Assembly: GCF_022809715.1 (NCBI RefSeq)
Contig: NZ_CP094459.1
Location: forward strand, 2,666,001-2,730,000
Reading direction: 5' to 3'
DNA: 64,000 nucleotides
Source: Burkholderia pyrrocinia
GTDB taxonomy: Bacteria; Pseudomonadota; Gammaproteobacteria; Burkholderiales; Burkholderiaceae
Position numbers and translations under genes: made by a program. The number at the start of each line of letters is the position of its first letter. Positions within the stretch are counted from its first letter, which is position 1. The notes under the pieces are model-generated. The model was given only the letters and a program-made list of their open reading frames with translations, did no database searches and was not told where the DNA came from. Below are positions 55,195 through 64,000 of this stretch, in pieces.

Positions 55195-55269
55195 CTCCCC
55201 GTAGTTCAATGGATAGAACAAGCGCCTCCTAAGCGCTAGATACAGGTTCGATTCCTGTCGGGGGGACCA
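55195..55269 (+). tRNA. tRNA-Arg (anticodon CCT)
   Basis: 75 nt including encoded CCA. The acceptor stem CTCCCCG pairs with CGGGGGG (one T-G wobble), the D arm is GTTC...GAAC, the anticodon stem AGCGC/GCGCT has loop CTCCTAA (CCT at 55228-55230), and the T arm is ACAGG-TTCGATT-CCTGT. It reads AGG codons. It marks the left edge of the integrated island: the integrase gene begins 163 bp downstream. Confidence 0.95.
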
Positions 55270-55431: not shown

Positions 55432-56619
55432 ATGCCCTTGACCGACAAAGCCGTCAAGAATGCGAAAGCGGACGACAAGCCCGTAAAGTTGTTCGACGGC
55501 GGCGGAATGTTCTTGCTCGTTACCCCGGCCGGTCAGCGCTACTGGCGGCTCAAATATCGCGTCAACGGCAAGGAGAAGTTGCTGGCACTCGGCGTGTACC
55601 CGGACGTTTCACTAGCAGTCGCACGCAGAAAGCGTGACGAGGCGCGAGAAAAGCTTGCGGCGGGTATCGATCCGAATGAAGCAAAGAGGGAAATCAAACG
55701 AACGGCGCGCATCGCAGCCGCTAGTTCGTTCGAAGCGGTCGCGCGCGAGTGGTTCGACAATCAGCGGGCAGGATGGACCGAGACCTACGCTGAGAAAGTC
55801 ATCCACTCGCTCGAGATCGATGCATTCCCGAAGATCGGCTCACGCCCCATCGCCAGCATCGAAGCGCCAGAAATGCTGGAGATCATCCGCGCAATCGAAG
55901 CACGGGGCGTCCGGGAAACCGCCAAGCGACTGTTGCAGCGTTCGCGCGCCGTATTCCAGTATGCCATCATGACTGGCCGTTGCACCCGTAACCCGTCCGC
56001 CGACATCGATGCGGAAACGATCTTAAAAAAGGGGCTGGGCGTACAGCACATGGCCAGGGTCAAGCCGTTGGAGATCCCACAGCTCATGCGCGACATCGCC
56101 GCGTACCCAGGTGAGCCAGTTACCCGGCTGGCGCTAGAATTGATGGCCCTTACCTTTGTCCGCACGAAGGAAATGATTCGCGCTCAATGGGCCGAGTTCG
56201 ACGAGACTGCAGCAGAGTGGCGTATCCCGCCCGACAGAACGAAAATGCGGGACCCACATATCGTCCCGCTGTCGCGACAATCGCTGGAGGTGTTGATGCA
56301 GCTCCGGCAAATCAATGGTGACCGGCCACACGTGTTCTATAGCGTACATGGTCGAGCACCAATCTCGAATAACACCATGTTGTTCGCGCTTTACCGCATG
56401 GGCTACAAGTCGCGAATGACCGGACACGGCTTCCGTGGACTCGCCGCCACGGTGTTACGTGAACTAGGGTACAGCCGAGACGTTGTAGATCGTCAACTCG
56501 CGCATGCGGAGCGCAATCAGGTCACGGCAGCCTACGTTCATGCCGAGTACTTGCCTGAACGACGCAGGATGATGCAGCATTGGGCCGACCATCTCGACAA
56601 TCTCAAAACCCGGTCGTAA
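55432..56619 (+). CDS. P4-type tyrosine integrase of a tRNA-Arg island
   Basis: 395 residues. The N-terminal DUF4102 arm-binding domain (MPLTDKAVKNAKADDKPVKL, then LALGVYPDVSLAVAR), a SAM-like core-binding domain and a catalytic domain with Arg244, His332 and Arg335 (TGHGFRGLAAT), His358 and nucleophile Tyr368 are all present, so the enzyme should be active. It lies directly behind tRNA-Arg(CCT) and points away from it, the usual layout when the island uses the 3' end of the tRNA as attB. Start codon and ribosome site are embedded in the GGGGTATC repeats, suggesting autoregulation. Confidence 0.93.
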   Translation: MPLTDKAVKNAKADDKPVKLFDGGGMFLLVTPAGQRYWRLKYRVNGKEKLLALGVYPDVSLAVARRKRDEAREKLAAGIDPNEAKREIKRTARIAAASSFEAVAREWFDNQRAGWTETYAEKVIHSLEIDAFPKIGSRPIASIEAPEMLEIIRAIEARGVRETAKRLLQRSRAVFQYAIMTGRCTRNPSADIDAETILKKGLGVQHMARVKPLEIPQLMRDIAAYPGEPVTRLALELMALTFVRTKEMIRAQWAEFDETAAEWRIPPDRTKMRDPHIVPLSRQSLEVLMQLRQINGDRPHVFYSVHGRAPISNNTMLFALYRMGYKSRMTGHGFRGLAATVLRELGYSRDVVDRQLAHAERNQVTAAYVHAEYLPERRRMMQHWADHLDNLKTRS

Positions 56620-57130: not shown

Positions 57131-57916
57131 TCATGCGATGGGGCCTTCCTTCGGTCCAGACTGGAATACTCGATCGCGGTGCCACGGCAGGTACGTACGG
57201 TGCGCGTCCGCTAGCCCGTGCACGCGAAGCGGTCGATCGAACCCGAGAGTCCGGCGGGCATTAGCATCAAGCAAATCGCTCACGACAATCGTTCCGTCGT
57301 TGGCCACGGTGATGAACCCGCGATCGAAAGCAGCGTCGAGGTGCGGCGCGAGCAGGATCCCGTTGTAGACGTCTAGCCGCTCGACATCCGTCTCGCAGTC
57401 TGCCCAAGGCTTGATATGGCTCGCGCGTAACAGCGCGGGCACCGCCAACCCAGTCACAGCGCAGCGCTGCTCCCAAAGGTCCAGCAAACCGTCACGGAAC
57501 AGGTTTTGGCCAATACGCTGGATAACGAGGCGCTCGGCCTCCGTTGTTTGCGGCAACGTGGCGATCTGCTTCTCGAACGTGTGTAGCAGTTCATTCGGCA
57601 GTGCCTTCGAGAGCTGGATTGCGCGCCTTAGTAGCCGATGAAGGGCGGATACGTCAGGCACGACGCGCCCGGCGACGGCGGCTGTGGGAATCGGCTCGGA
57701 CATCGGCGCTCCGTACTCGCCCAGCGCGAGCGCGACATTCTGTTGTGAGAAAGCTGCAAAGAAGACAGTGTCACCGAACGCGCCTAGCCACACGCGGAGT
57801 GGGCACTGCGTACTTGCGAAGACAAGCCAGTCGCCCTGACGATCGAGTTCGTGGTCGAACCCGTTGTCCGTGGCCACCTTCTCCAAGCGCGAGACGATGA
57901 TGGGCGATAGCGCCAT
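57131..57916 (-). CDS. HNH endonuclease, last gene of the island operon
   Basis: 261 residues from ATG 57916. The catalytic HNH_2-type domain sits in the C-terminal half: Cys154-AVTG, SHIKPW (about 168-173), N187-GILL, PH194-LD and FD near 199 followed by GFI (numbering counts the two residues of the alternative GTG start). The N-terminal 90 residues (HELDRQGDWLVFAS, then VFFAAFSQQNVALALGEYGA) form an unfamiliar domain, perhaps for target binding. A GTG at 57922 overlaps the ATPase stop, but GGGGGAG lies about 6 bp before the ATG at 57916 and abuts the GTG, so the ATG is preferred. It should be the nuclease of the system encoded with the two genes upstream. Confidence 0.85.
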   Translation of the reverse strand: MALSPIIVSRLEKVATDNGFDHELDRQGDWLVFASTQCPLRVWLGAFGDTVFFAAFSQQNVALALGEYGAPMSEPIPTAAVAGRVVPDVSALHRLLRRAIQLSKALPNELLHTFEKQIATLPQTTEAERLVIQRIGQNLFRDGLLDLWEQRCAVTGLAVPALLRASHIKPWADCETDVERLDVYNGILLAPHLDAAFDRGFITVANDGTIVVSDLLDANARRTLGFDRPLRVHGLADAHRTYLPWHRDRVFQSGPKEGPIA

Positions 57917-57918
57917 TC

Positions 57919-59895
57919 TCACTCCCCCCCTTCGTCGATCACGTCATGTGAGGACGGTGTCGCCCGGGCGAGGAGGTTTTCAACGCGGCGCTTGAGGAGC
58001 AGGTCCAGGTCACTTGCGCGCGACAGTTTCAGAATGCGCGTCGGAGGCTCGCGAAGCAGCCCCGGAGGCGGCGTGGTCGTGGTAAGGATCACCTGAAGGC
58101 CCGGCGTCGCATTGCAGGTTTCGTCAACGAGTTTAAGGAACCGGTCATAGAGATGCGGGCTCATCTCGCGCTCTCGCGGGCAATCGAAAATCAGTAGTCC
58201 GGGATGAGCACCGCCACCGCTCGCACCATCCGCCGCGCATGCGAGATCGCCAAGCAGAATCTCCAGCACCGTGTAAGCGTCGCCGTCGGCGCCGAGCATC
58301 TGGAACGGACGCTTCTCATCCGAGGGCATGAAACGCCCTTTCACACCGAACACCTCGGCGAGCTTGGCGACTCGTGTGGTGATCTGCCGCTCACGCACGG
58401 ACGCCTGCTGTTGAGCCGAGAGTTTGGCACCCTTGGCCGTCTCGAGCTCCTTCTCGACATCCAAGACGGCAGCACGCGCCCCGCGCAGCTTTCCTGTTTC
58501 GGGAGCTTGCTGACTCTCCTGCCATTGCGCGAGTGTCCTGCGAACTGAATCGCCCTCGCCGAGCTGTCGCAATCGGCGTTCGATCGACAAGCTCAGGGTC
58601 GCCCTCTGAGTGGTCTTCTTTTGCCCTGCGGCCAAAAGCGCACTGAGCGCCTCAGCTTCTCGCTCGTACTCGGCCTTTTCGGCAGCCTCACGATCGCTTT
58701 GTACCTCGATCGTCTTCGTCAGCACATTGATGTCACGCTTTGCCGTCAGCGCAGCCGCGTCGCGTTGTTTCTGGACGTAACTGCATTCCGTATAGGAGAC
58801 TACGCCGTATTGGCACATGCCTGACAGCGTGAGCAGCTTGTCTCGTCGTTCGCGGATTTCCTTCAACGACTTGTCGTCTTTGCTCCTCAGGGCCACGGTT
58901 TCCTCCCACCGCGCCTTCGCCAACTCGACGATCCGTTCTTGTGTCTTGCTGTCAGCAGCAAGCTCAACAAGCTCTCGGTCTAAGGCCGAGATCAGCGCAC
59001 GATCCTCGTCGTTCTTGGTTTCGAGCCGAGTCGTTTTCGCTTGAATCTCTGTCTCGACCGACTCAGCAAAGAGATCGTCGGCGACCATCTGCAACGCGTT
59101 GCTCACGCCCGCCCATACACGGAGCTGCGTTTCGACAATGCCGCGAGTGTTCACACTCCGCTGCTCCTCGCTCCTCACTGTCTCACGAGCCCTCGACAGC
59201 TCGCCGGTGAGTGTCGAGATCCGCTTCTCGGCCTTGGCCTCAGCGTCACCGAGAAGACCAAGGACAAGCCGCACGAGAGCCGGTGGATCCATAACCTTGC
59301 GGCGCAGCCCGGTTCCGTCATCATTGCGCCACTCGAAGTATTGGCGCAACCCAAGCGCTTGATCACGGGCGATCCAACAGATAATGTGCGACCACTCGAC
59401 GGCTTGGGCCGTGACAGGAAGCGCACGCGTCGGCATGCGTTGCAGACAAGCCTGTTCACCAAGGTCCGCGACATAAGCCGAGAAGTCCACAGCGTCCGCC
59501 CTCGCATTCTCCCCGAAAAGGTCCTCCACAGTTGCATTCTTGAGCGCGAAGCTCTGCTGCCCGAAGGAGCGCAATACCGCGAACCGTTTCTCGCCAGCAA
59601 CTACTTCTGCGGCAATTCCTCCGCTGCCGTAAAACTCGGCAAGATGGTTGCGCATGGTCTTAACAGCCGCGCCATCGTCGCCCAGCACTGCTCGGAGCAT
59701 GAGCGAGAACGTGCTCTTACCTACACCATGGCCGGCGCGATCGACCTCTGTCGCGCCCTCGACAAACGTCAGCTCCTCAGCCCAGACGATGTTGAGCCCC
59801 GCGTGCAACCGAACGTCGCGAATAAACGTTGCGGGCGAGCGCGACTCGACGATTACGAGACGTTCGACGCGAAGATGCGGAGCCAGATCACTCAT
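57919..59895 (-). CDS. SMC/Rad50-like ATPase of the island operon
   Basis: 658 residues. Walker A GHGVGKST (55-62) near the N-terminus and Walker B LLIFDCPRE (567-571 and on) near the C-terminus are separated by long charged coiled coils (about 215-355 and 375-505), the layout of SMC and Rad50 proteins. The signature helix of a full ABC head is not obvious. At the middle of the coil lies SGMCQYGVVSYTECSYV with Cys361 and Cys371, a C-x9-C pair where Rad50 has its zinc hook. It resembles DUF2326-type phage-defence ATPases. The start ATG overlaps the methyltransferase stop (ATGA). It likely senses DNA or controls the HNH nuclease; that is inference. Confidence 0.82.
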   Translation of the reverse strand: MSDLAPHLRVERLVIVESRSPATFIRDVRLHAGLNIVWAEELTFVEGATEVDRAGHGVGKSTFSLMLRAVLGDDGAAVKTMRNHLAEFYGSGGIAAEVVAGEKRFAVLRSFGQQSFALKNATVEDLFGENARADAVDFSAYVADLGEQACLQRMPTRALPVTAQAVEWSHIICWIARDQALGLRQYFEWRNDDGTGLRRKVMDPPALVRLVLGLLGDAEAKAEKRISTLTGELSRARETVRSEEQRSVNTRGIVETQLRVWAGVSNALQMVADDLFAESVETEIQAKTTRLETKNDEDRALISALDRELVELAADSKTQERIVELAKARWEETVALRSKDDKSLKEIRERRDKLLTLSGMCQYGVVSYTECSYVQKQRDAAALTAKRDINVLTKTIEVQSDREAAEKAEYEREAEALSALLAAGQKKTTQRATLSLSIERRLRQLGEGDSVRRTLAQWQESQQAPETGKLRGARAAVLDVEKELETAKGAKLSAQQQASVRERQITTRVAKLAEVFGVKGRFMPSDEKRPFQMLGADGDAYTVLEILLGDLACAADGASGGGAHPGLLIFDCPREREMSPHLYDRFLKLVDETCNATPGLQVILTTTTPPPGLLREPPTRILKLSRASDLDLLLKRRVENLLARATPSSHDVIDEGGE

Positions 59896-62800
59896 GCGCG
59901 CTTCGCCTTTTCGATCTGGATCGTCTCGACGGAATGCGTGCCACTAGCTCCCTGCTCAGCACGTTCGAGTCCGCCACGCAGAACGCGTGCGAGCTTTACC
60001 AACATAGGCGTCAGCGGGAGCCAGTTCGGAATCGTACCGCCTGGATGTAGTCGAACCATGCCCTTACTATCGCGGGTGACCGCCTTCGCCATTTCGAGCG
60101 CATCGAGCAGCTTGAACGCTTGGCTATCAGCGACGCCCTCGGCAAAGAGTGGCTCGGACTCGCGAATGTAGTTGAACTCAATAAGTGCTGGCTCTTCGAG
60201 CCACGGGGCTGAGTGTTTCGGGTCCTGAAGCCAAAAGAGAGCTCGACCCAGCGCACTCGAGGAGATGCCCCCTTCGCCGCTACGTCGAATTAGAGTGAAA
60301 AACAATCCGGTTCGGAGCGCTTCGGCGTAATCTTTTGGCGTGCCGTCGGGCGCGAACGTACCGTGGCTCGCTCCCGGCGAGGCGGGCAATGGATCTAGCG
60401 GCGTTTGGTACGTGTTGCCGTTCTGTACGGCTTCCGCCAGCGCACAGTAGCTCTCAAGAATGACCTTTTTAGTGCGGTACTCGCCGTGGATCTTCTCGTC
60501 ATTCTTGCGGACAATCGAGAACGTATCCATGACGTAGTCGATATCGTCGCGCGATAAACCATAGAGATGAAAGAACGCCGCATCGAGTTCGCAGCGAAGC
60601 TGAAATCTTCGCTCCGTGTCCCAACGAAATGGCGTGCCCACGTAGGCAACGTCTCGCGCAAATTGCTCAAGATCCCACGACGTGTACGTTAGCTCAAGGA
60701 TTCGCGGAAGCATCCAATCTCCTATCGAGACTCCAGCGCTCGACCACGGGCAATGCTCCAAATACTTCTGGATAGGAATGCTGGGTAGCTGCTTGAAAAT
60801 CCAGATATTGACGTGCGTCCCACTGATTTTCTGTCGCGCGCAGAAATCAAATACAAACGAGTTTGCGTTCGCAACGAGAAACGCTGCTTCCTGTGCAGAG
60901 AGCCCAAGTACCAGATTTATGCTATTGCCCACCGCGGAGTAAGGCAGTACTGCTGCTATCGCCGTCCGCTCATTGGTAGCACTTGCAATATCCCGGAAAC
61001 CAACCATCCAACGATCTGGAATGCCGCGACGGGCAGTGCGCTGCCTAACGATGGATTCTTCGATAAAGCTCTTAGGAGCAATGCTTACTGACGGAACAAG
61101 CTTCTCCGAGAATATCATCTCATTGACTTCCCCGCTTCGCACTGTTGCAAAACGATGGTCGAACTGATGAATGAACTTGGCCTCGTAGAGTGCGATCGAG
61201 CCCTCAGATGCGTCCTTCTTGAATGCGCCAGAGTCTCTCGTCATGTTGAAGAGCTCTCCGAGGAAATCAATGCCAGAAAAGCGGCGCACGTCATCAATCA
61301 TGACGTGCTGCCCGCGACTATAGATTCGTCGACTTATTTCCACGTCACGCGTCGTCGTGAAGACTGGGCAGGTTCGCGAAGAAGGATTGAACAGTTCCAG
61401 ATCTTCTGCGTTCAGGCGAACCGTACGTCCGGCAGAGCGGAGGTCGTTCAATGTGTGAAGTAGCCAGCCAAATTCAGCCGATCGGTCGACGGACGCACCT
61501 GCGGTCCCTCGGAGGGTAATCAGACAGAACCGGAACTGTTGATGAACATCCGGGAAGAAGTTGCCCCGGTTCTCGAAATCAAGAAATCGGCACAAACGCC
61601 CGGAGCGCAGGAGAAAGTCAAAAAGTTCTTTCCCTGACTCATCTGTCGCGAGGCCAGTTTGTACAACGATTCCAGCGCGTCCAGTCGGCATTACAACTTG
61701 GGCGGCTAGTTCCGTGAAAATTCGGTAGCTGTTGAGGTTCCCATCACCTGTGAATACTAGCCGACCACTAGATCCGAGAAAGTGGCAGGTACCGTCCACG
61801 CCCCGCTTATAGAATTCCCACAGGTCATGGGTCGCAGGATCGTCTGTAGGCAACGCGGCAATGAGCCCCTTGCGCAACTTGGCGCTTGGAGCGGTCGCAA
61901 TATCGGGGCGAATCGCGGCAAAGAATTTTTCTTCCTCCGGCTGAATCTTGTCCCACGGCGGATTGCCCAAGACTACATCGAACCCGCCCCTACCAAATAC
62001 CTGAGGGAACTGCAGATGCCAATGGAAGAAGCGGTACTGCTCCGCGAGTTCGCTGACGGTCTCCACTGTGAGCGCTGGCGCCTTTTCTTGCGTATCTCGA
62101 AGCTGCCTCCACAATTCGTTCGTCGGCGCGGCATCGGCTAGGTCACCCGGCTGCTTGGGCCACACGAAGGCCGCACACCACGCATCGGCTGTGAACTTCT
62201 GGTGTCGGTATTCAGGGGAGCCGAGGATGTTTCCCCAGCGAACTTCCTTGCTCGTCAGCTCGTCAAGCTGAGCGTCGCTCGCGGCGTCGAGGTCGACGAA
62301 TGCGCGGGTGACAGCCCTAGACTCTATCTCACTGTTTTGCGCTCCGCCGAAATCGAGCGTGCGTTGCCCTCCGGCCTCCGCCTTATTCCGCTTTTTCAGC
62401 GCACTCGAGGTCTTCTTGTCGTCACCCTCGATAGGGTCCCACGCGGCGTCCGGGATACCCTTGGCCATCAACTCGGGCGTCGTGCCGAGGAGCGCGTTGC
62501 CGTGCTGGATGTGAGAGTTAAGAAACGTGAGCGGCATACCCGGCTCGACGGCTTCCATCCAGAGGCCTACCTTGCACAACTCGACAGCCATCGGATTGAG
62601 GTCAACGCCGAAAATGCAGTGACCTACCACCTGCCGAAGCGCGTGCTGGTACTCGGATCCTGACGGTGTGCCGTTCGCCTGAAGGCGCGCGACATGCGCG
62701 GCGAGTCGGCGAGCGGCGGCGAGGAGGAAGTGCCCTGAGCCGCAGGCCGGGTCAACAATCGAAAGCGCAAGCAACGCATCGACGGGATTGACCGGGTTCT

Positions 62801-64000
62801 TGGCAATGGTTTCGGCGATTACAGGTTCGAGAGAGCTGTCGAGCAACTCCTGCACGAGACTGTCAGGTGTGTAGTAGCTACCTGTCGTCTTGCGCACATT
62901 GCCCTTCTTCTCACCGCCTGTCGCAAAGACGAACTGGCGTCCGTCGCGCGCGATCTGCGGAACAAGCTCGAGGAGGCTCTCATAAACGCTGCCTAGCTCC
63001 TCAGGCCCCATGTCTCGCCAATTGACGCGGGAGAGATTGCCATCTTCCCGCAACCACGAGAGCTTGAACATCGCAATAAGGAGCGCGCGGTTCTCGAGCT
63101 TCGCCCCGTCAAGCGCGGGACACTGGCTCGTGGCGAAGATGCCAGCGAGCGCCGGCAGGCCGATGCGTGGCTCGCCGGAGGCAAGTCCCCGGAACACGAC
63201 CTTTGTGCCCTCCCAAAGGTCGGGAAAGCGATCGTGGGCGTTGCGCTTCACCGACCGCTCGCGCAGACGTCGCATGCCGTACCCGTCCGCGTAAAGCGCC
63301 TTGACCAAATCGCTCGTGCCGTCGGGATGGAGCAACCCACGCTCTTCCACCGTCAGGAGAAAGATAAGCCGGTAGACCACTCGCAGCAGCTGGTTAAAAT
63401 AGTCCTTCAGCGGCAGCGTGCCGTTCTGTAGGTCTGCACGTAGCGCCTGGTTCTCGACGTGTGAGAGAAAACCCTGACCGAGCGCGACGAGCGCCTCTTC
63501 AACGCCGCGACGCAGGTGCTCGCGAGCACGTGTGCCTTCTTCTCGACCCGCATTACGCCACGCTTCGAGCGCGCACTCGGTAACCGGCTGGCCCTCGCGG
63601 CCAAACCGCGTCTCGTGGCAGAGCAGCCAGAGCGCGGCGAAATCAGCATAGCGCTCTTCGACAAAAATGCGTTGGAGATCAGCCTCGATCCATGCGGGAC
63701 GCGTAAGGCTTGCGTTGTCGCGAATGATGCGCAGTGACGCGCCATCGCTGGCAATGCCCCACAGCGCGCCCTCCTGCGCGTTCAGGAACTCTTGCGCAAG
63801 GCCAAAGGCGCTTCGCTTGCGTCCCCCTGCTCCGAACTCCGACGCGAGCGTATCGAGCCCGCTGTCGGCCGCGGCGATGACGACGGGTACGCGCCCCCCT
63901 AGTGCCGCATACCCGATCGCGTACGAACGGCCGGCGAGGACGGCTGGTTCCATCGGCGTGACCGACGTGAAACCGAACGCGTCGCGGAGAAGCGCAAGGA
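59892..64000 (-). CDS. Large N6-adenine DNA methyltransferase, Eco57I-like (5' end off window)
   Basis: At least 1368 residues; the frame is still open at the right edge (LALLRDAFGFTSV precedes the first in-window ATG at 63953), so the start lies outside. Counting from that ATG: an N-terminal domain with GLAQEFLNAQEGALWGIASDG (51-71), a helical part, TTGSYYTPDSLVQELL (356-371), SAM motif I DPACGSGHFLLAA (401-413), GVDLNPMAVELCKVGLW (449-465) and catalytic motif IV NPPW (664-667). A C-terminal target-recognition-like half follows (IHQFDHRFATV and on). No nuclease motif was recognised. Architecture is that of type IIG/PglX/DrmMI-like enzymes. Its stop overlaps the ATPase start, so the three genes form one operon. 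GC falls in the C-terminal half. Confidence 0.88.
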   Translation of the reverse strand, partial: LALLRDAFGFTSVTPMEPAVLAGRSYAIGYAALGGRVPVVIAAADSGLDTLASEFGAGGRKRSAFGLAQEFLNAQEGALWGIASDGASLRIIRDNASLTRPAWIEADLQRIFVEERYADFAALWLLCHETRFGREGQPVTECALEAWRNAGREEGTRAREHLRRGVEEALVALGQGFLSHVENQALRADLQNGTLPLKDYFNQLLRVVYRLIFLLTVEERGLLHPDGTSDLVKALYADGYGMRRLRERSVKRNAHDRFPDLWEGTKVVFRGLASGEPRIGLPALAGIFATSQCPALDGAKLENRALLIAMFKLSWLREDGNLSRVNWRDMGPEELGSVYESLLELVPQIARDGRQFVFATGGEKKGNVRKTTGSYYTPDSLVQELLDSSLEPVIAETIAKNPVNPVDALLALSIVDPACGSGHFLLAAARRLAAHVARLQANGTPSGSEYQHALRQVVGHCIFGVDLNPMAVELCKVGLWMEAVEPGMPLTFLNSHIQHGNALLGTTPELMAKGIPDAAWDPIEGDDKKTSSALKKRNKAEAGGQRTLDFGGAQNSEIESRAVTRAFVDLDAASDAQLDELTSKEVRWGNILGSPEYRHQKFTADAWCAAFVWPKQPGDLADAAPTNELWRQLRDTQEKAPALTVETVSELAEQYRFFHWHLQFPQVFGRGGFDVVLGNPPWDKIQPEEEKFFAAIRPDIATAPSAKLRKGLIAALPTDDPATHDLWEFYKRGVDGTCHFLGSSGRLVFTGDGNLNSYRIFTELAAQVVMPTGRAGIVVQTGLATDESGKELFDFLLRSGRLCRFLDFENRGNFFPDVHQQFRFCLITLRGTAGASVDRSAEFGWLLHTLNDLRSAGRTVRLNAEDLELFNPSSRTCPVFTTTRDVEISRRIYSRGQHVMIDDVRRFSGIDFLGELFNMTRDSGAFKKDASEGSIALYEAKFIHQFDHRFATVRSGEVNEMIFSEKLVPSVSIAPKSFIEESIVRQRTARRGIPDRWMVGFRDIASATNERTAIAAVLPYSAVGNSINLVLGLSAQEAAFLVANANSFVFDFCARQKISGTHVNIWIFKQLPSIPIQKYLEHCPWSSAGVSIGDWMLPRILELTYTSWDLEQFARDVAYVGTPFRWDTERRFQLRCELDAAFFHLYGLSRDDIDYVMDTFSIVRKNDEKIHGEYRTKKVILESYCALAEAVQNGNTYQTPLDPLPASPGASHGTFAPDGTPKDYAEALRTGLFFTLIRRSGEGGISSSALGRALFWLQDPKHSAPWLEEPALIEFNYIRESEPLFAEGVADSQAFKLLDALEMAKAVTRDSKGMVRLHPGGTIPNWLPLTPMLVKLARVLRGGLERAEQGASGTHSVETIQIEKAKRA

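Follow-up and report, generated by a model that had tools for sequence, protein, structure and literature searches.

An ARMADA type I-like operon of Burkholderia pyrrocinia with an SMC-like ATPase, an extended methylase and an HNH nuclease: a probable restriction system with two exchanged modules

The window, that is, the whole stretch of 64,000 nucleotides analysed here (Burkholderia pyrrocinia, contig NZ_CP094459.1, positions 2,666,001 to 2,730,000), ended on its right inside a leftward operon whose genes, in operon order, encode a YprA/DruE-like helicase, an SNF2 (BrxHII-like) helicase, a PglX-like adenine methylase, an SMC-like ATPase and an HNH nuclease. The locus is best read as an ARMADA type I-like restriction system in which two modules have been exchanged (probability about 0.6): the SMC-like ATPase together with an extension at the C-terminus of the methylase, and the HNH nuclease in exchange for a helicase-fused Vsr nuclease domain that has lost its active site. 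A preliminary description of the window had seen the last three genes as a unit. The trio lay where it had been placed, and was the tail of a five-gene operon beginning beyond the window rather than the whole unit.

Positions above 64000 are the window numbering extended rightward into the genome sequence. The first operon gene (67132-72483, extended; 1783 aa) and the SNF2 helicase gene (64274-67135, extended; L002:10274-13135; 953 aa) both lay outside the window, were recognised from their open reading frames (ORF) and by Pfam and PADLOC, and overlapped by 4 bp; the preliminary description had proposed to look for helicase and other defence genes beyond position 64000. A 2-bp gap separated the SNF2 gene from the gene of the PglX/DrmMI-like N6-adenine methyltransferase (minus strand, 59892-64000 in the window, start at 64271, extended; 1459 aa in the genome; Pfam, PADLOC and motifs), which in turn was overlapped by 4 bp by the gene of the SMC/LmuB-like ATPase (minus strand, 57919-59895; 658 aa; ORF and 23-sequence alignment). 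The HNH endonuclease gene (minus strand, 57131-57922; 263 aa) overlapped the SMC gene by 4 bp when its GTG start was taken. Of the 4-bp overlap and 2-bp gap described earlier, the overlap was found as such, and the gap only applied with an in-frame ATG at 57916, two codons inside the HNH gene.

ARMADA type I consists of a YprA-family helicase, then a BrxHII-like SNF2 helicase, then a PglX-like methylase, and ARMADA helicases have at their end a Vsr nuclease predicted to be active, according to the accessible part of the preprint of Bell et al. (2025; PMC12458937). The first three genes of the window operon were the same set in the same order. The first helicase combined a DEAD core with a DUF1998/MZB zinc module (Pfam DEAD 3.3e-27, Helicase_C 2.6e-8, MZB 1.4e-8); its nearest PADLOC profile was DruE1 (9.2e-95), and its nearest PDB chains were 9tu7 and 9wae, followed by YprA (6znp). 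The second carried SNF2 and Helicase_C domains and matched PADLOC DpdE over almost its whole length (1.3e-179), then DrmD and BrxH; a match to HmaA (2e-51) ranked behind DpdE and DrmD. Because DpdE was the best profile of this helicase, annotation pipelines may wrongly give ARMADA operons the name Dpd. The methylase matched Pfam Eco57I (1.5e-18) and N6_Mtase (6.7e-9) with its DPACGSG and NPPW motifs intact, and its part inside the window matched PADLOC DrmMI (4.4e-59). Walker, DEAD/DEAH, methylase and HNH motifs were all intact in the window's own proteins. The operon differed from ARMADA type I in the added SMC and HNH genes, in the methylase extension and in a dead fused Vsr domain, the active C-terminal Vsr typical of the type being absent; it is called a variant because an active Vsr was treated as typical and not as defining.

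In the main text of PMC12458937, as far as accessible, SMC is never named and HNH occurs in the reference list only; the same portion reports that an ARMADA type II system protects E. coli without cell death and requires all four of its genes, and no test of a type I system or of an SMC variant was found there. No SMC-carrying ARMADA was found in titles and abstract openings of the papers listed in a literature search that mostly left out subscription papers, and the ARMADA passages of PMC12904381 and PMC13192584 mention no such form. Within the literature searched, the SMC/HNH variant of ARMADA type I is so far undescribed, though not categorically new.

Among methylases longer than 1080 aa (n = 36), the 20 beside an SMC gene measured 1438-1679 aa and the 16 without one 1101-1402 aa; the difference in length was the C-terminal extension, which in the window's methylase covered about residues 1275-1459 (minus strand, 59892-60449; from about residue 1290 in the length comparison) and was predicted to be winged-helix-like with a long last helix. 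Presence of the SMC gene and of the extension agreed in all 48 scorable loci (23 with both, 25 with neither), loci without a readable methylase end being left out of the scoring, and still agreed in 40/40 (15 both, 25 neither) after removal of the window's own locus and of loci obtained only through the SMC. On the helicase tree (relatives of the window's helicase only; Vsr columns excluded; quick method, LG+G4), 46 rows could be scored for both traits: SMC and extension changed 11 times each, and 10/10 independent pairs were concordant (p 0.002).

Divergence told the same story as occurrence. Across 16 loci, the rank correlation of pairwise distances was 0.59 between SMC and extension, 0.15 between SMC and helicase and 0.13 between SMC and methylase core, while methylase core and helicase distances correlated at 0.84. 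The partial correlation of SMC with extension was 0.59 (0/5000 permutations), that of the control, SMC with core given helicase, was 0.003, and removal of near-duplicates (13 loci) left SMC with extension at 0.56 (0/5000 permutations). The distances were thus coupled independently of the backbone, and SMC and extension behave as one cassette moving between ARMADA backbones. Since they share their presence, absence and divergence, SMC and extension probably touch.

The SMC-like ATPase had a Walker A motif (GHGVGKS), a coiled coil and a Walker B Asp571 followed by Cys/Ser in place of Glu (23-sequence alignment). The paired-Cys apex claimed for it was borne out in 23/23 homologues, which had C361 and a second Cys no more than 25 residues away in mid coiled coil. 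A PADLOC LmuB profile matched 20/23 homologues (best 1.4e-22), the window's own protein with a short match only (3.9e-9; residues 558-610), and DUF2326 was detected in 10/23 at E values up to 0.1. Searching PDB sequences with the window's SMC sequence by itself returned nothing useful. The closest named relative found for the gene was in Paraburkholderia sp. LEh10 (82%).

The extension is perhaps LmuC-like, judging from its AlphaFold2 model (pLDDT 76). In Foldseek against 350,542 PDB chains, ranks 1 and 2 were weak matches to 9uxh_D (E 0.20) and 9ny5_C (E 0.32), both from Lamassu complexes and both small chains (170 and 171 residues) that are LmuC by size; they aligned over 117 residues of the extension, the longest alignments among the 50 matches listed. 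The other fold matches listed were mostly winged helices, cullins and repressors. Pfam and PADLOC profiles, LmuC included, gave no match on the extension.

The second module concerns the nucleases. The window's helicase retained a Vsr domain whose active-site residues (the D of the DF motif, and DG..H) were lost. The active site was kept in 32 of 57 aligned helicase C-termini, the window's own being among the 57; either of two adjacent His positions was accepted, the first being absent in 11 rows scored as intact (L030, L031, L037, L039, L077, L101, L102, L105, L108, L110, L111), and the N-terminal helicase fragments L034_15, L088_00 and L103_01 were excluded from the alignment. With an HNH counted as a match to the profile of the window's HNH family, a dead Vsr occurred with HNH in 21 rows and without it in 4, and an intact Vsr with HNH in 2 and without it in 30, so that 21 of 23 loci with HNH were dead and 30 of 34 loci without it intact. 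In L075, L087, L104 and L105 the downstream sequence ended; these four were counted among the 30 intact rows lacking HNH and were excluded from the HNH and SMC tree counts. The contig of L082 ended about 0.5 kb past its SMC gene. When the window's own locus, loci found only through the SMC and the four without downstream sequence were excluded, 46 loci remained (with HNH, 17 dead and 2 intact; without it, 4 dead and 23 intact).

The four dead-Vsr loci without HNH were a truncated locus with no partner genes (L020), one with an insertion sequence after the methylase (L035), one with its partner genes missing (L079) and one that was partly degenerate (L038). An apparent exception in Hydrogenimonas (L025) was resolved when its HNH was found at the other end of the circular record (L107). 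Loci added after the HNH-Vsr rule had been fixed all fitted it: L100 had an HNH and a dead Vsr, and L101, L102, L106 and L108-L112 had an intact Vsr and no HNH of the window's family, given that the partner genes of L101 and L102 were not in the stretch examined and that L110 was scored as lacking HNH although two different genes annotated with an HNH motif lay at a distance from its helicase.

The history of these loci weighs against taking the association as repeated replacement. A single clade contained 23 of the 25 dead-Vsr rows, and Hydrogenimonas (L025) and L038 lay outside it; on the tree, dead Vsr changed 3 times and HNH 5 times, and independent pairs gave no support for the association. 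The seemingly overwhelming Fisher p value was set aside because the tree showed nearly one event, so that replacement is supported chiefly by a single history. Within that history, the dead-Vsr clade kept HNH in 20/23 rows, the exceptions (L020, L035, L079) being truncated or interrupted operons, unlike the SMC, which changed 12 times over the whole helicase tree. In the sister group (L069-L071, Burkholderiaceae) the Vsr was intact and HNH was present in 2/3 (L069, L071); this group is possibly a stage with both nucleases. The active site of the fused Vsr is lost, and the HNH probably took over its cutting.

In both L069 and L071, other genes separated the HNH from the methylase or the SMC gene.

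The C-terminal half of the HNH protein matched Pfam HNH_2 (4.3e-12) with catalytic motif residues retained, His169, Asn187, Asp196 and Asp200 were identical in 20/20 relatives, and the nearest structure of this half was 6yex (VcaM4I) both by sequence (3.7e-36) and by fold (9.4e-11). The AlphaFold2 model had an overall pLDDT of 89. The N-terminal half (about residues 1-120) had no Pfam or otherwise named domain and gave weak fold matches only (SycT, MotA).

Recurrence of the trio in other genomes, a check proposed in the preliminary description, was observed in Burkholderiaceae, Rhizobiales, Myxococcota and others. All five genes stood in the same order in Paraburkholderia (L008) and in two metagenome-assembled genomes of Myxococcales (L009, L010), with 62-90% identity over the stretches compared, the helicase being compared in its C-terminal part only; L009 had a 398-aa ORF between SMC and HNH. 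These three came from a contig scan with the SMC that returned 8 loci, among which L015 had four genes (no HNH of this family), L014 had SNF2, methylase and SMC, and L011, L012 and L013 were contig pieces. The ORF caller missed genes hidden by overlaps (SNF2 in L009, HNH in L010), and the HNH of L010 was taken from tblastn. In a draw of 398 genomes from the phylum, 14 had the helicase (E ≤ 1e-100) and 8 the SMC (E ≤ 1e-10), and all 8 had the helicase; in a draw of 200 genomes from the family, 6 had the helicase and 4 the SMC (E ≤ 1e-3), again all with the helicase. The window's own genome is counted once in each draw. Among 72,556 plasmid records, the helicase was found in 67 (E ≤ 1e-50) and the SMC in 8 (E ≤ 1e-5), and no plasmid DNA near-identical to the operon was matched. 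No phage record had the SNF2 helicase at E ≤ 1e-50, and viral contigs yielded one locus (L106), whose available stretch contained neither SMC nor HNH.

SMC occurred without HNH and HNH without SMC. Over the 57 rows, a dead Vsr was found with both in 12 and with HNH but no SMC in 9, and an intact Vsr with SMC but no HNH in 9; with an intact Vsr, L071 had both SMC and HNH and L069 had HNH alone. The trio is not the unit of evolution; SMC tracks the methylase extension and HNH tracks the dead Vsr.

A mechanism can be proposed for the ARMADA type I-like system with exchanged modules. The methylase would mark host DNA, and the two helicases would engage unmarked foreign DNA. The SMC, acting as has been proposed for Lamassu, would clamp hairpins, fork-like structures or the ends of DNA. 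Its signal, relayed to the methylase complex by way of the extension, would license the HNH to cut, so that methylation would be checked jointly with DNA structure. A more specific version, held at slightly less than even odds, is that the operon is a chimera in which a Lamassu LmuB-LmuC sensor was grafted as a transferable cassette on ARMADA methylases, with LmuC fused, and was gained and lost many times; the SMC clamp would gate restriction, and in one branch an HNH acting in trans would then have replaced the Vsr, some relatives having both. Should the exchange of modules hold, one methylase domain would be the predicted SMC contact and the nuclease swap would point to the cutting subunit; SMC-type DNA sensing would be linked to methylation-based restriction, and the operon would show part-swapping among defence systems.

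Three other explanations were weighed. SMC and HNH might be the sensor and the suicide nuclease of a separate Lamassu-like defence, which would merely share the operon and come into play once the first layer had failed. The LmuB-like SMC agrees with this, as do the HNH nucleases among Lamassu effectors, thought to act by abortive infection (accessible part of PMC10586767), and the backup nucleases of BREX-related systems (accessible part of PMC12839542); such a second defence is nevertheless unlikely, as SMC and HNH are no fixed pair among the 57 rows, the SMC is tied to the methylase extension instead, and no LmuA was among the matches listed for the operon proteins. Even less probable is a modification-dependent (Type IV-like) activity of the HNH against modified phage DNA, complementing the methylase core. 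Nearest to its catalytic half were two restriction endonucleases, VcaM4I and TagI, the latter of which carries the label modification dependent, and an NCBIfam family of restriction nucleases for phosphorothioated DNA matched below threshold (2.7e-9; 36.6 bits, where the cut-off is 180); the PDB profile match ended, however, at the catalytic half, the N-terminal half offered neither a Pfam domain nor more than weak folds, and the dead Vsr would be left unexplained. That HNH and SMC are chance cargo of a defence island, functionally unlinked to ARMADA, would suit the varied neighbours of ARMADA-I loci (McrBC-like, ThiF/JAB-like, toxin-antitoxin), but the reading frames overlap, the arrangement recurs from Burkholderiaceae and Rhizobiales to Myxococcota and others, and the 48/48 coupling to a part of the methylase itself makes it hard to hold for the SMC; this explanation is very improbable. 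A fixed SMC-HNH pair was rejected, each being found without the other.

The operon proteins were searched singly against profiles and matched parts of several systems. Lamassu (LmuABC, ABC-3C, DdmABC) is resembled in the SMC-like ATPase of about 650 aa with its apex Cys pair, in the LmuB profile matches of 20/23 homologues (the window's own being short) and, perhaps, in the LmuC-like fold proposed for the extension; in contrast to Lamassu, the operon has no separate LmuC gene and sets the SMC beside a methylase and two helicases. LmuA, the effector with a docking C-terminus, was not among the PADLOC matches listed for the five operon proteins, and the operon was not filed as Lamassu. DISARM class 1 is resembled in the methylase (DrmMI) and the SNF2 helicase (DrmD), but the DEAD core and MZB stand in one 1783-aa chain nearest DruE instead of in separate DrmA and DrmB, and the matches listed for the operon and for the seven proteins to its right did not include DrmC; membership was rejected on these grounds. 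BREX was rejected likewise, as PglZ and BrxC were not among the PADLOC matches listed for the five operon proteins and the seven right-hand neighbours (the integrase only being scanned on the left flank). The earlier idea of a defence or restriction operon with a DISARM-like methylase hence survives as homology and fails as an assignment, the gene content being neither that of BREX nor that of DISARM. Druantia was set aside with only its helicase DruE among the matches listed for the operon. Hma consists of a helicase, a methylase and an ATPase; HmaA was matched by the SNF2 helicase, and HmaB and HmaC were not among the PADLOC matches listed. BREX-related systems in which the helicase-fused nuclease is sometimes missing and nearby nucleases, including HNH, are termed compensatory (Rakesh and Krishnan, 2026; PMC12839542, accessible part) resemble the window operon in a fused nuclease that is missing or inactive and in the presence of another nearby, but are centred on DUF499, and YprA and DUF1998 are absent from the text as far as accessible.

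In related loci, some operons were altered. The methylase of L082, L083 and L084 was split into two ORF with short ORF between them, the extension and SMC still following, and the helicase match held an in-frame stop in L073 (TAG) and L100 (TGA), which are decaying copies or sequence errors. Behind other ARMADA-I loci (L034, L036, L038, L039, L040, L107) stood McrBC-like, EVE/DUF2357 or ThiF plus JAB-like genes, or an ATPase, a small protein and an HNH, so that new genes seem to plug in at the operon's 3' end. Mu-transposase-like and TniB genes lay behind SMC and HNH in a plasmid of Mesorhizobium sp. AR02 (L019), and Mu-transposase-like, TniB and TniQ genes behind the SMC in a plasmid of Paraburkholderia dioscoreae (L031); a Tn5053/Tn7-like carrier is possible.

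The genomic setting of the operon, in a host genome of 7.69 Mb, was as the preliminary description had it, with a tRNA-Arg and an integrase. The tRNA-Arg (CCT; plus strand, 55195-55269; ARAGORN) is a possible attachment site, and the adjoining tyrosine integrase (plus strand, 55432-56619; 395 aa; Pfam Arm-DNA-bind_3, Phage_int_M and Phage_integrase) may have been the island's vehicle. The 40 kb searched contained no match to the tRNA region, direct or inverted, of at least 13 bp, so that the ends of the island were not delimited. None of the seven right-hand neighbour proteins matched PADLOC at E ≤ 0.01 (0/7). To the right of the operon (L002:19462-20000 and L003:2-6024; extended from about 73462) were genes with domains of type VI secretion (Tla3, Tle3 phospholipase, VgrG-like), and a small ORF between the operon and these genes, judged by eye, is taken to be PAAR-like.

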